Source: Sphingobacteriales bacterium (GTDB lineage: Bacteria; Bacteroidota; Bacteroidia; Chitinophagales; CAIOSU01). From it: 64,000 nucleotides of DNA. This document shows positions 37,749 to 42,028 of the stretch, piece after piece; position 1 is the first letter of the stretch; each line of letters begins with the position of its first letter. The DNA lies in NCBI GenBank assembly GCA_027486795.1, contig JAIXOI010000037.1, positions 1-64,000 on the forward strand, written 5' to 3'. The notes below the pieces were generated by a model, which had not been told where the DNA came from, searched no databases, and saw only the letters and a list, made by a program, of their open reading frames with translations. The position numbers and the translations under genes were made by a program.

Positions 37749-38858
37749 ATGAGTACTTACACATCATCAATTCAATGGCGCGACATGAAGTATGCGCTAG
37801 GCTATTTGGCCCCAGCGTCAGCTGTTGTGGCTATATATTTTGGAGGTATAGTTTCGTTTCTTACCCCGTTCATCATGTTTGTACTCATTCCTATTCTGGA
37901 GTTTTTCTTTACAGGCACCGACGTCAATTTCACTAAAGAAGAAGAAGAAACTGCCAAAGGGAAATGGATTTTTGATGCCATGCTGTACATAAATGTACCC
38001 ATACAATGGGGCGTTATTATTTATATGCTCTTCAGGGTAACGGGTGGCGACCTGGAGACGTACGAAATAGTGGGCATGATTGTTAGCGCAGGCATGTGCT
38101 GTGGCATTTTAGGTATAAATGTAGCGCACGAGCTGGGCCACCGCCGCAAATGGTACGAGCAATGGATGGCCAAAGCCTTGCTGTTGAGCAGCCTTTATAT
38201 GCAGTTTTACATTGAGCACAACCGTGGCCACCATAAAAACGTAGCTACCGACGAAGACCCTGCCTCATCTCGCTACGGAGAGCCCATTTACTTTTTCATT
38301 CCCCGATCCATCATTTTCGGCTATATAGGTGCCTGGAAACTGGAGTTTGACCGATTGCGCAAAGACAATAGTTTCCTTTTTGGTTGGAGCAACGAGATGG
38401 TGCGTTTTCATGTTTACGAAATAGCTGCCATTGCAGCGGTGTATTTCATTTTCGGAGGCATGGGAGCGCTAGCTTTTGTTGGTGCAGCGGCTTGTGGTTA
38501 CTTTTTGCTTGAGTCGGTAAACTACATTGAGCACTATGGCCTGCGCCGCAAAGAAGTGGCACCGGGCCGATACGAAAAGTGTATGCCTTGGCACAGTTGG
38601 AACAGCGACCACACATTTGGCCGCATAATGCTATATGACCTTACCCGCCACAGCGACCACCACTACCTTGCCGGTCGCAAGTACCAAGTATTGCGTCATT
38701 CCGAGGATAGCCCACAGTTGCCTATAGGTTACCCAGCAGCGATAGTGCTATCGTTTATACCGCCTTTGTGGTTTGCCTACATGCACCCCAAAATTGCCAA
38801 AATTGAAAAAGGTGCCCATCCTGAGATTAAGAAGGATTATGGTATGGCCACAGCGTAA
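37749..38858 (+). CDS. alkB: Alkane 1-monooxygenase (AlkB-type, di-iron)
   Basis: A 369-residue integral membrane protein with about six hydrophobic segments. All diagnostic His motifs of the AlkB family are present: HELGHR (127-132), EHNRGHH (156-162), NYIEHYGL (258-265) and RHSDHH (300-305), which together bind the di-iron centre. It inserts oxygen into the terminal carbon of medium-chain alkanes using electrons from rubredoxin; no rubredoxin gene is in the window. It is divergent from a TetR regulator and convergent with phhA, with only 3 bases between the stop codons. Fatty-acid or other alkyl substrates are possible. Confidence 0.94.
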   Translation: MSTYTSSIQWRDMKYALGYLAPASAVVAIYFGGIVSFLTPFIMFVLIPILEFFFTGTDVNFTKEEEETAKGKWIFDAMLYINVPIQWGVIIYMLFRVTGGDLETYEIVGMIVSAGMCCGILGINVAHELGHRRKWYEQWMAKALLLSSLYMQFYIEHNRGHHKNVATDEDPASSRYGEPIYFFIPRSIIFGYIGAWKLEFDRLRKDNSFLFGWSNEMVRFHVYEIAAIAAVYFIFGGMGALAFVGAAACGYFLLESVNYIEHYGLRRKEVAPGRYEKCMPWHSWNSDHTFGRIMLYDLTRHSDHHYLAGRKYQVLRHSEDSPQLPIGYPAAIVLSFIPPLWFAYMHPKIAKIEKGAHPEIKKDYGMATA

Positions 38859-38861
38859 CTG

Positions 38862-39593
38862 CTACCGCCCTACCTTCGCCAATTGCAACTCTAACTGCGC
38901 CTCAATAGCATCTACGCTGTGGTATAGCTGCTCAAACGAGTCGATAATGTAGTACTCTACTTGAAACTTCTCTTTGATGTACGGGCTATCGAAAATGGCT
39001 TGTATGTCGAAGGGCTTGCGAGCAGGCAACGGCGACTCTAACGAATATACCGACTCGCCAATGGACGATAAAATACCCGCCCCGTATATCTCCGTATGGC
39101 TTTGCTCTTTAATCAGGCCAAACTCAATGGTAAACCAATACAAGCGGCTCATCAGCTCTACGGCCCATGGGTTTTTAATGTGCTTAAGTGCAATGCGGCT
39201 TATGCCTTGCAAAAAGTCTACATACGGTTGGTTAACTAGCAGTGGCACGTGGCCAAAAACATCATGAAACATATCTGGCTCTTCCAGGTATTCCAATTCG
39301 CTCATTTTGCGAATCCAGGTGGTTGCCGGGAATTTCTTTTCGGCCAATAGTTCAAAGAAATGGTCGTCGGCAACAATGCCGGGCACCTCATATATGCACC
39401 ATCCGGTAAGTTTGGCCAAACGCTCGTTTACCTCACTAAATTTAGGTATCCGGTCGGGCTCAAAGCCTGCCAACTCAATGCCCTCCAAATACGCAGCATT
39501 GGCGCGACCTTTCAAGTTCACCATTTGCTTACCGAAAAGGATAGACCACACTTCGTGGTTTTCGGCGGTGTAAAGCTCATACTGCTGTTTCAT
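38862..39593 (-). CDS. phhA: Phenylalanine 4-monooxygenase
   Basis: A 243-residue bacterial-type aromatic amino acid hydroxylase consisting of the catalytic domain only. The iron ligands are H110 and H115 in DMFHDVFGHVP and E157 in YWFTIEFGL. It converts phenylalanine to tyrosine with tetrahydropterin and oxygen. Starts with ATG at 39593. Its upstream region contains a Tyr-rich short open frame and a terminator that look like an attenuator. With hppD (40892-42028) it forms the start of phenylalanine/tyrosine degradation. The C-terminus overlaps no other gene but ends 3 bases from alkB. Confidence 0.95.
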   Translation of the reverse strand: MKQQYELYTAENHEVWSILFGKQMVNLKGRANAAYLEGIELAGFEPDRIPKFSEVNERLAKLTGWCIYEVPGIVADDHFFELLAEKKFPATTWIRKMSELEYLEEPDMFHDVFGHVPLLVNQPYVDFLQGISRIALKHIKNPWAVELMSRLYWFTIEFGLIKEQSHTEIYGAGILSSIGESVYSLESPLPARKPFDIQAIFDSPYIKEKFQVEYYIIDSFEQLYHSVDAIEAQLELQLAKVGR

Positions 39594-39782
39594 TTTGATT
39601 ATTGGTTTAATGGTTACTTGTTATTGTTTAATGGGTCAACTGGTTAATTAGTTATTGGTATACTGGTTTATTGGTTGCTTATTATTGATTAATGGGCATT
39701 ACATTTTTAGTCCCATTTATTATTAACATCTTAATCAATCAATAAACTAATGCACCTATCAACTAGTAACTAATAACCAAAC
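39594..39782 (-). repeat. Long AT-rich leader of phhA with inverted low-complexity words
   Basis: Between the terminator and the phhA start lie about 190 bases. TTGGTTTA/GGTTATTGG words (39600-39690) face their reverse-complement-like forms (39725-39780), so an imperfect long hairpin is possible. No gene was seen. Confidence 0.45.
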
Positions 39783-39815
39783 AAAAAAAGGCCCACTCCT
39801 TGGGGAGCAGGCCTT
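39783..39815 (-). terminator. Terminator hairpin of the putative phhA attenuator
   Basis: On the minus strand AAGGCCTGCTCC (39815-39804) pairs with GGAGTGGGCCTT (39799-39788) over 12 positions, two of them G-U, with loop CCAA. It is followed by five more T. No full-length gene lies directly upstream on that strand, only the Tyr-rich short open frame, so this is an internal, conditional terminator or the end of a short transcript. Confidence 0.82.
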
Positions 39816-39839
39816 ACTATATCAAAATAGCATCAATAC

Positions 39840-39902
39840 CTATTCCCTATCCACCAGCGGCGCATAATACAAAGGGTAATAGATATTGCTATTGTTGTTC
39901 AT
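39840..39902 (-). CDS. Putative Tyr-rich leader peptide of a phhA attenuator
   Basis: A 20-codon frame, MNNNSNIYYPLYYAPLVDRE then TAG. Four of 20 codons are Tyr (residues 8, 9, 12, 13). The stop lies 24 bases before a strong intrinsic terminator, and phhA, which makes tyrosine, follows on the same strand. The segment GGGAAUAGG at 39847-39839, which includes the stop codon, can pair with CCUGCUCCC (39811-39803) of the terminator's 5' arm at eight of nine positions, a candidate antiterminator. A ribosome held at Tyr13 would leave this segment free, while one finishing the frame would cover it. There is no clear Shine-Dalgarno, as is normal for the phylum. It is an inference from layout; no homologue was searched. 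Confidence 0.6.
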   Translation of the reverse strand: MNNNSNIYYPLYYAPLVDRE

Positions 39903-40353
39903 AATGGTGAAAATACAACGAAAATGATGCCAAAACAAGTGTGATGGAGTAATTTTTTGTATCTTTTTCACAATGGTTCGCATGCATATACATCAGGGTA
40001 ATTAGGTACGTACTTGCCCGTTATTGCTCTACGCTTATACGCGTACCTTCCTTTTGTCGGGCTAAATGTTCCGTTTGTCGGCGATTTAGATACGTCTGCC
40101 GATAATACATCAATCAAATAAACTATCCGTTCTATATTTGCTTTAGCAATTGAAGTAGCCCTTTTAAAGATTAATAAAATCGTTAACGGAAGTAACCATT
40201 AGTTCAACGATTATTATAATCCGTTCAACGAATTGTTAAGGTTTTGTGAGAACATCTGCATTAGCTTTACGTTGTATTATTGAAAGAGCAAGTTTAAAAC
40301 AACTTGTTGCCCCGATTAGTAAATATTAATATCACAATCAAAATTTTACTGCC
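39903..40353 (+). promoter_or_regulatory. Regulatory gap upstream of the ArsR-like gene
   Basis: 450 bases without a gene. It contains TTTGTCGG twice (40053-40060, 40074-40081) and GTTCAACGA twice (40202-40210, 40223-40231), each pair spaced 21 bases start to start, i.e. on one face of the helix. A perfect -7 box TATATTTG is at 40133-40140, without a matching -33. These are candidate regulator sites for the downstream gene. Confidence 0.4.
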
Positions 40354-40674
40354 ATGAATTATTTGAATAAAGAACAAATGGAAGTGTTGAGCAGGGTTAA
40401 GTCTAAAGTACGTGCCTTGTATCACCCTTTGCGTCAAAGCGTTTTGATGCTTATCAACGACAACGGTAACCGCATGAACGTAACTGAAATTTACGTGAAA
40501 TTGCGCATTGAGCAGTCAGTAGCATCACAGCACTTGGCTATTTTGCGCAACGAAGGTTTTGTAAACACTGAACGTGAAGGTAAAACTATTTGGTACAGCG
40601 TAAACGAAGAAAGCATTAAGAGTTTCGTAGCTCACGCTGCTGAAGTATTGGATACTGCAAACCACGCTGCATAA
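40354..40674 (+). CDS. ArsR-type winged-helix transcriptional regulator
   Basis: A 106-residue protein. The winged helix runs from RALYHPLRQSVLMLI through the recognition helix QSVASQHLAILRNEGFV to the wing EREGKTIWYSVN, the classic ArsR/SmtB pattern. No cysteine occurs anywhere, and the usual ELCVCDL metal site is replaced by NVTEIYVKL, so it is not a thiolate metal sensor. It lies between phhA and hppD, both on the opposite strand, and may regulate them. It ends in a hairpin at 40718-40754. Confidence 0.9.
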   Translation: MNYLNKEQMEVLSRVKSKVRALYHPLRQSVLMLINDNGNRMNVTEIYVKLRIEQSVASQHLAILRNEGFVNTEREGKTIWYSVNEESIKSFVAHAAEVLDTANHAA

Positions 40675-40717
40675 TAGCTGGGTTTTAAAGTAAAGCTTAA
40701 GCATTTGCACTAAGGTG

Positions 40718-40754
40718 CATAACAAAGGCTACCATGTAGGTCGCCTTTGTTATG
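40718..40754. terminator. Hairpin after the ArsR-like gene
   Basis: CATAACAAAGGC (40718-40729) pairs exactly with GCCTTTGTTATG (40743-40754); a moderately T-rich stretch (TTATCCTTTT) follows on the plus strand. It may work for both strands. Confidence 0.55.
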
Positions 40755-40764
40755 TTATCCTTTT

Positions 40765-40890
40765 CAAGAAACAAGACGCAAGACACAAGATTGAGATTAA
40801 AGGATTGAGAAGTTCTTTACCGCTTCCAACAAATTCGCATTTAACGAACTATTTTTAAAGCAAACACTATGTCTTGTGTCTTGTGTTTAA
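40765..40890. repeat. Short repeats of CAAGACACAAGA type
   Basis: CAAGACGCAAGACACAAGA at about 40772-40790 and its inverse TCTTGTGTCTTGTG at about 40872-40885 bracket 80 bases before the hppD stop. Function unknown. Confidence 0.45.
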
Positions 40891-40891
40891 C

Positions 40892-42028
40892 TTACAACGT
40901 TCCCCTTAACTCTTGTTCGCGCTCAATGGCCTCAAATAAGGCTTTAAAGTTGCCTTTGCCAAACGACTTAGCGCCTTTGCGCTGAATGATTTCGAAAAAT
41001 ACCGTTGGGCGGTCTTCAACGGGTTTAGTGAATATCTGCAGCAGGTATCCCTCGTCGTCCCTATCCACCAAAATATTCAGGTTTTTCAGGTCTTCAATAC
41101 TTTCGTCAATATTGCCAATGCGGCTTTTTAAGTCTTCGTAGTAGGTTTCGGGCACTACCAAAAACTCTACCCCACGCTTGCGGAGATCGGATACGGTATG
41201 CAGTATATCATCGGTAGCCACGGCTATATGTTGCACGCCCGGCCCGCCATAAAAATCAAGGTATTCCTCAATTTGCGATTTCTTCTTGCCCTCTGCTGGC
41301 TCGTTTATCGGGAACTTGATGCGACCATTGCCATTACTCATTACCTTACTCATCAAAGCAGTGTAGTCGGTGCTGATGTCCTTATCATCAAAACTGATAA
41401 GCTGCGCAAAGCCCATAACCTCTTTATAGAAGTTAATCCAAGTGTTCATCTCGTTCCAACCCACGTTGCCCACCATGTGGTCAATATATTTTAGGCCAAC
41501 CACGGGCGCGCTGTAAGGTGCATTCCAGGCCTTGTAGCCTGGCAAAAACGTTCCTTTGTAATCCTTACGCTCTACAAATATGTGCACGGTGTCGCCATAA
41601 GTGCGTATACCGCTACGCACTACCTTGCCGTGCTCATCGCTTTCTTCGCGTGGCTCCATAAAAGGCTTAGCGCCACGCTTTACGGTCTCATTAAACGATA
41701 GGCGGGCATCATCAACCCAAAGCGCCACCACCTTTACCCCATCGCCATGCTGTTGCACGTGCTTGCTTATCTCGCTATCGGCCACCAAACTAGTAGTTAG
41801 CACGATGCGAATCTTATCTTGCTGCAGCACATACGATGCACGATCCTTTACGCCCGTCTCTAACCCAGCATACGCCAATGGCTGAAAACCAAATGCATTG
41901 ATATAGTAGTAAGCCGATTGTTTGGCATTGCCTACATAAAACTCAACATAATCGGTGCCGTTCAAGGGCAAAAAGTCTTCGGCGGTTGGGTTTATTTTAG
42001 GGGCGTTGGTGGCGGATGTACTGTACAT
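40892..42028 (-). CDS. hppD: 4-hydroxyphenylpyruvate dioxygenase
   Basis: A 378-residue enzyme with two vicinal-oxygen-chelate domains. The ferrous ligands are H184 (KYIDHMVGNV), H267 (GVQHIAVATDD) and E346 (FFEIIQRKG), in the order of the family. It converts 4-hydroxyphenylpyruvate to homogentisate in tyrosine degradation. The C-terminal helix (FKALFEAIEREQELRGTL) that closes the active site is present. Starts with ATG at 42028. A regulator gene and phhA lie downstream on either strand. Homogentisate dioxygenase is not in the window. Confidence 0.96.
   Translation of the reverse strand: MYSTSATNAPKINPTAEDFLPLNGTDYVEFYVGNAKQSAYYYINAFGFQPLAYAGLETGVKDRASYVLQQDKIRIVLTTSLVADSEISKHVQQHGDGVKVVALWVDDARLSFNETVKRGAKPFMEPREESDEHGKVVRSGIRTYGDTVHIFVERKDYKGTFLPGYKAWNAPYSAPVVGLKYIDHMVGNVGWNEMNTWINFYKEVMGFAQLISFDDKDISTDYTALMSKVMSNGNGRIKFPINEPAEGKKKSQIEEYLDFYGGPGVQHIAVATDDILHTVSDLRKRGVEFLVVPETYYEDLKSRIGNIDESIEDLKNLNILVDRDDEGYLLQIFTKPVEDRPTVFFEIIQRKGAKSFGKGNFKALFEAIEREQELRGTL

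Follow-up and report, generated by a model that had tools for sequence, protein, structure and literature searches.

A candidate tyrosine-codon transcription attenuator upstream of the phenylalanine hydroxylase gene in Bacteroidota

Introduction

The enteric attenuators of trp, his and pheA share a single plan, in which a leader rich in codons for the end product is combined with three alternative RNA segments and an intrinsic terminator, such that transcription reads through when the charged tRNA is short. The trpL and pheL leaders are reviewed in PMC11802643. The leader of the phenylalanine hydroxylase gene (phhA) described here follows the same plan, and every feature of the class that can be judged at the sequence level is found in it: a Tyr-codon leader apparently under selection, an intrinsic terminator, an antiterminator, a protector hairpin between segments 1 and 2 (1:2) and a downstream gene whose product makes tyrosine. 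Unlike the trp, his and pheA attenuators, it has Tyr codons, phenylalanine hydroxylase as its target, a Bacteroidota host and a predicted near-leaderless start.

The nearest Tyr-containing case found is the aroR leader of Corynebacterium glutamicum, which carries Phe-Tyr-Phe and whose operon is stated to be unaffected by Tyr availability (Neshat 2014, as summarized in PMC11802643). Like the phhA leader it contains codons for aromatic amino acids and stands before genes of the aromatic pathway, in this case an operon; it differs in the Phe-Tyr-Phe sequence and in the stated indifference of its operon to Tyr. Cysteine-rich frames of mycobacteria are candidate attenuators in the context of leaderless transcripts (Shell 2015, PMC4633059); they are alike in being rich in a single residue and, if the predicted start is right, in their leaderless context, and differ in host and in the residue, cysteine as opposed to tyrosine. 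In the same phylum as the present locus, some amino-acid operons of Flavobacterium psychrophilum have been proposed to be under leader-peptide attenuation (PMC9723704), leader-peptide-like short frames have been described in Bacteroides thetaiotaomicron (PMC7366714), and a structured element lies upstream of pheA in Flavobacteriaceae (PMC9723704, PMC7366714). These cases share the phylum and the short 5' frames, and differ in that phhA and Tyr go unmentioned in the relevant passages of those papers.

What is new here is the amino acid (Tyr), the target gene (phhA) and a widespread, probably often leaderless form in Bacteroidota, whereas the class of mechanism is known. The charging of tRNA-Tyr is also sensed by the Tyr T-box, through antitermination; the phhA leader would share that sense and differs in having its Tyr codons in a frame that would be translated. 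The window, by which we mean the whole 64,000-nucleotide stretch of contig JAIXOI010000037.1 that was analyzed, gave no T-box match at E values up to 1 in an Rfam scan of positions 38500-41500. No family in that scan rose above its gathering score, the best being Thr_leader, which reached 23.4 bits where 55 are required (E 0.23), and the scan thus yielded no known leader or riboswitch. No Tyr-specific ribosome-mediated attenuator and no phhA attenuator was found among the searchable papers, a set outside which lie most subscription papers and all supplements. Lopatovskaya 2010, to which PMC4833913 refers, is said to be a comparative study of attenuators and may contain a related prediction.

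Results

On the minus strand of the window, the leader frame, the terminator hairpin and phhA follow one another in this order (Table 1). An earlier note, made from the window sequence alone, had described a 20-codon frame with two Tyr-Tyr pairs, a 12-bp terminator hairpin with a T run and, downstream, a phenylalanine hydroxylase gene. The frame and its Tyr pairs are present, the hairpin is followed by TTTTTGTTTG as its T run and is conserved in three relatives, and the identity of phhA is upheld by its NF008877 score. There is no minus-strand gene directly before the terminator, which is therefore not simply the end of some upstream gene.

Table 1. Features of the phhA leader region in the window; L002, L003 and L004 are the three further genomes of the genus.
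Feature	Positions	Strand	Details
Bacteroidota-type promoter: TTG (39938-39936), 20-nt spacer, TATTTTCA (39915-39908)	39908-39938	-	Predicted start 39903, one base before AUG
Leader frame MNNNSNIYYPLYYAPLVDRE, ATG...TAG, 20 codons + stop	39840-39902	-	From translation; kept in L002, L003, L004
First Tyr-Tyr pair, codons 8-9, TAT TAC	39876-39881	-	Tyr-Tyr in 4/4 genus genomes, codon 9 TAC/TAT
Second Tyr-Tyr pair, codons 12-13, TAT TAT	39864-39869	-	Codon 12 TAT, TAT, CAT (His), TAC; codon 13 TAT in 4/4
Segment 1, overlapping first Tyr pair; predicted partner segment 2 without ribosome	39873-39888	-	MFE and centroid of window RNA; four-genome consensus fold
Segment 2, around leader stop; predicted to pair with segment 1 or (39847-39838) with segment 3 as antiterminator	39834-39848	-	Masked folding, duplex prediction
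Segment 3, within terminator 5' arm; predicted partner segment 2	39803-39812	-	Duplex prediction, masked folding
Intrinsic terminator hairpin, 12 pairs (7 G-C), T run to about 39781	39788-39815	-	Same hairpin in L002, L003, L004
AT-rich spacer with degenerate repeats, terminator to phhA	39594-39780	-	Without TAnnTTTG element
phhA, phenylalanine 4-monooxygenase, 243 aa	38862-39593	-	NF008877 281.5 bits (cut-off 247), PF00351

An ArsR/SmtB-type regulator gene lies at 40354-40674 on the plus strand, divergent from the leader and phhA, and beyond it hpd (4-hydroxyphenylpyruvate dioxygenase) occupies 40892-42028 on the minus strand. The position of this tyrosine-breakdown gene about 1.3 kb upstream, seen in the window and also in L002 and L003, is compatible with a catabolic role of phhA too. 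The ArsR/SmtB-type gene is kept beside phhA in L002, L003 and L004, and its product may be a further layer of control on phhA. The degenerate repeats of the spacer are akin to CCAATAAC and GGTTATTG.

The genus comparison covered the window and the three further same-genus genomes found with phhA, whose copies of the gene are 96, 95 and 92% identical; phhA was not seen in a further genome of the genus that is 78% complete. The leader frames of the three relatives read MSFTSNIYYPAYYVPQVHRG, MNFTSNIYYPAHYVPQVHRG and MNIRINSYYPAYYCQQANRG, and the length, start and stop of the leader as well as the terminator are constant across the four genomes. The earlier note had named lack of conservation of the frame or of its Tyr codons as evidence against an attenuator, and the opposite was found: 15 of the 16 Tyr codons are retained, two of them spelled TAC, and one has become His (L003). 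Switches between TAT and TAC occur at two positions within the genus, and pairwise comparison in six sets of close relatives counted 12 synonymous and 3 non-synonymous differences at Tyr codons. When synonymous and non-synonymous differences were counted over the whole leader, frame 0 gave 41/97 and frame +2 gave 36/101, such that the frame is not supported by that test alone; the Tyr codons alone stand out in it.

A promoter of the form TTG-N20-TAnnTTCA precedes the leader in all four genus genomes. The TAnnTTTG box of Flavobacterium psychrophilum lies at -12 to -5 (PMC9723704), so a box that ends 4 nt before the AUG predicts a start on the A of the AUG itself; for the window the prediction is 39903. 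Across 39 leaders, 19 have a promoter of the TTG-N20-TAnnTTCA kind ending no more than 8 nt from the start codon, and 24 have TAnnTT[TC][GA] within 30 nt upstream, against 5% expected. For roughly half of the leaders, promoter position predicts a transcript that starts at the AUG. Such leaderless or near-leaderless mRNAs are uncommon in Bacteroidota, making up 5.5% in F. psychrophilum (PMC9723704), and 5' UTRs under 10 nt amount to 3.7% in B. thetaiotaomicron (PMC7366714). A consensus search of the four genus genomes found no Bacteroidota promoter element between the terminator and phhA, and for this reason a second promoter there was rejected.

How well does comparison between genomes support an antiterminator? 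The earlier note had paired the region around the leader stop with eight of nine bases of the terminator 5' arm; this pairing is confirmed and extends a little further, joining 39847-39838 to 39812-39803 by 9 pairs with one A.C mismatch. Taken alone, the window pairing does not exceed dinucleotide shuffles (p = 0.37), so a single sequence would not have proved an antiterminator. Within the genus of the window p ranges from 0.10 to 0.54, with weak pairing in L004, and the genus's own terminator arm ranks 19th of 36 in cross-genome pairing. Within the genus, the four sequences show two-sided changes at 3 of 46 pairs, too small a number to judge covariation, and cross-genome permutation of the pairing was used in its place. 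In a set of 36 divergent representative leaders, segment 2 finds a better partner in the terminator arm of its own genome than in foreign arms (0 of 20,000 permutations), and 16 of 35 leaders of the order have an antiterminator with p < 0.05 against dinucleotide shuffles. These two results are the main evidence that antiterminator pairing is under selection, as judged from the genomes compared.

The leader RNA of the window folds at -47.5 kcal/mol, as compared with -30.5 ± 3.8 kcal/mol for shuffles (z = -4.5). Free RNA is predicted to form the 1:2 hairpin together with the terminator, and the four-genome consensus fold agrees. According to these models, the 1:2 hairpin would keep the antiterminator strand hidden as long as no ribosome is on the RNA, and the leader would thereby have all three segments of the classic design. 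In masked folding, the RNA under the ribosome was blocked and the fold extended no further than segment 3. The expected number of pairs between segments 2 and 3 (2:3) in the window RNA was then 0.3 in the free state, 10.1 when a ribosome occupied either the first or the last Tyr codon, and 0 when it stood on the stop. The earlier proposal that a ribosome at the stop covers segment 2 is thereby reproduced in the model. Its companion, that a stall at codons 12-13 frees segment 2, holds in masked folding, although not for those codons in particular, since the first Tyr pair works equally well. L002 and L004 resemble the window, and the L003 RNA, folded as far as segment 3, favors 2:3 even when free. 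Once segment 4 is included, the terminator is more stable at equilibrium in every state, which suggests that the switch must be kinetic, its outcome being set while the RNA is still being made, as it is for the classic attenuators.

We hypothesize that this leader controls phhA by ribosome-mediated transcription attenuation, with charged Tyr-tRNA as the signal, and on the genomic evidence we consider this very probable. RNA polymerase would start at the leader AUG or one base before it, and a ribosome would presumably begin on the 5' end of the RNA. When Tyr-tRNA is plentiful, the ribosome would read YYPLYY, reach the stop and cover segment 2, such that the terminator would form and phhA would not be transcribed. 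When Tyr-tRNA is scarce, the ribosome would stall at the Tyr codons and cover segment 1, allowing 2:3 pairing that would block the terminator; phhA would then be transcribed and more phenylalanine converted to tyrosine. An untranslated leader would pair segment 1 with segment 2, and the terminator would again form. What the genomes show directly are the parts, their conservation, the match of antiterminator to terminator across genomes and the co-occurrence with TyrA loss; leader translation, stalling, termination and the tyrosine response are what we infer.

The earlier note had arrived at the same interpretation and had proposed comparing phhA upstream regions across Bacteroidota. In this comparison Tyr-rich frames and terminators recur in many families and the own-arm pairing is specific, which, together with conservation in the genus, supports that interpretation at the level of sequence. 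A sample of 398 genomes of the window's order contained phhA in 103, and up to 500 nt upstream of the 103 phhA loci were read. A Tyr-rich short frame ending beside a terminator precedes phhA at 35 of the 103 loci, equally 35 of the 103 genomes, with examples such as MKSNRIYYYYYYTPAQERYR, MINCSNYYYYYLNPARLGAGS and MITSCTYYYYSYKIPQKEQG and Tyr runs from YYYY up to YYYYYYY. When the count was restricted to ATG frames in which one residue is repeated at least three times in a row near a terminator, it gave Tyr at 27 of the 103 loci, Leu at 3 and every other residue at no more than 2, as opposed to 0 or 1 Tyr-run locus in each of 20 shuffled sets. Between the end of the terminator and phhA lie about 20-35 nt in most other leaders of the order and about 187 nt in the window.

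Tyr leaders also appear in other families of the class in the phylum sample (YYYYP, YYYYYP, YYYHYY), and a scan of named genomes found them among Cytophagales in Marivirga, Fulvivirga, Roseivirga and Hymenobacter gummosus, and also in Cesiribacter. The leaders before phhA in Echinicola and Algoriphagus mix His with Tyr, and in those of Algoriphagus His is the more frequent of the two (TYVHHSYHLLQ type). Mapped on the PhhA tree, the leader requires 11 changes, of which well-supported branches force at least 5; it has therefore been gained or lost repeatedly.

Why would tyrosine control phenylalanine hydroxylase? Neither TyrA (PF02153) nor prephenate dehydratase (PF00800) is present in the window genome, which is 97.6% complete, or in its genus, both searches being positive in nearly all control genomes, whereas chorismate synthase and pterin dehydratase are present in the window genome. 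The phenylalanine/tyrosine branch thus appears to be lost in this genome, possibly with a prephenate dehydratase of another family in place. In the absence of TyrA and prephenate dehydratase, PhhA would probably be the sole endogenous source of tyrosine, using imported phenylalanine. The same holds for family f1, noted together with the window genome: prephenate dehydratase (PF00800) is absent from 6 of 6 genomes of the family, in spite of the presence of chorismate synthase, and phenylalanine synthesis has probably been lost.

The leader and the loss of TyrA co-occur across the order. TyrA is absent from all 35 leader genomes and present in 35 of the 68 phhA genomes without a detected leader, the other 33 having neither TyrA nor a detected leader. 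In the class sample TyrA is absent from 37 of 39 leader genomes, with G446 and G736 the two that have it, versus 33 of 78 genomes without a detected leader, counts that come from non-independent lineages. Paired comparison on the PhhA tree left just 5 independent contrasts, not enough to test the link with TyrA. One genus of the order has the Tyr leader followed by phhA and then aroB (L033, G302, 139-2199), and on the same strand aroC follows at a greater distance in G302, G366, G383 and G284. A Tyr leader in front of shikimate-pathway genes points to a biosynthetic setting.

Discussion

Could the leader be a real attenuator that reads something other than charged Tyr-tRNA? A nascent peptide, the modification state of a tRNA or a general slowing of translation might serve as the signal, and although we hold this improbable, it is the alternative that survives best. 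It draws on the mixture of His with Tyr in Cytophagales leaders, where in Algoriphagus His exceeds Tyr, and on the C. glutamicum aroR leader, which answers Phe and not Tyr (PMC11802643); since that response occurs despite a Tyr codon, codon content can mislead. It is opposed by the small amount of sequence that families share outside the Tyr run, unlike arrest peptides, by run lengths that vary from 2+2 to 7, by a Tyr share of 20% of leader residues in the window's order versus 2.6% for His, and by a downstream gene whose product makes tyrosine. Queuosine sensing was considered because of the mixed TAY/CAY runs, His and Tyr codons both being read by queuosine tRNAs; nothing beyond codon content spoke for it as a separate reading, and it was kept within the alternative just described.

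A second alternative, which we regard as very unlikely, is that the terminator belongs to a small RNA or to a transcript from upstream, that the frame is there by coincidence or codes for a small protein, and that phhA has its promoter downstream. The distance between the T run and phhA in the window agrees with such an arrangement, whereas the spacers of all four genus genomes are without a Bacteroidota promoter element and the terminator of most other leaders stands too close to phhA for a separate promoter. Moreover, Tyr codons are retained while much of the peptide changes, and segments 2 and 3 match within genomes. That a Tyr-rich frame came to lie near a hairpin by chance in AT-rich DNA, as the AT-rich codons TAT and TAC and the unremarkable window pairing might suggest, is scarcely credible, being already contradicted by the conserved Tyr codons and by the excess of Tyr-run loci over shuffled upstream regions.

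The attenuator that responds to charged Tyr-tRNA is thus the reading we prefer, and it lends itself to a broader statement that we hold with moderate confidence: Tyr-specific ribosome-mediated attenuators, often starting at the leader AUG, occur in at least two Bacteroidota orders, with several gains or losses on the PhhA tree, and in the order of the window they would mark lineages where phenylalanine hydroxylase replaced TyrA, with tyrosine made from phenylalanine as in animals. Bacterial phenylalanine hydroxylase is usually described as catabolic. The present comparison suggests that a Tyr leader before phhA could serve as a genome-based marker for biosynthetic use of the enzyme.

Bacteroidota do not rely on Shine-Dalgarno starts, and the phhA leaders add a testable attenuator class in this phylum. 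If transcription does start at the AUG, as is probable, one may ask how ribosomes load on a leaderless leader fast enough to couple with RNA polymerase. Long Tyr runs occur in cultured strains (Fulvivirga sediminis, Marivirga sericea and Hymenobacter gummosus), which makes testing of the switch practical.

The His codons that would control a tyrosine-making enzyme in Algoriphagus and Echinicola are a puzzle for a Tyr-only reading. His is found in the leaders of loci L182, L186, L190, L192, L195, L202 and L204, for example MNPTPRTYVHHSYHLLR, and in those of L210, L212, L214, L216, L223, L224 and L231. These leaders keep the same terminator/antiterminator plan, as in GGGATAGG with CCTATTCC. In a further family (f29), the region from about -175 to -17 before phhA at loci L119, L127 and L159 has a leader frame without a Tyr run, for example MMNQTAKCFCLNIRPVVDGVGLYCRYGS, and a terminator, which in L119 and L127 is matched by a near-perfect antiterminator. 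The leaders of this family may respond to another signal.
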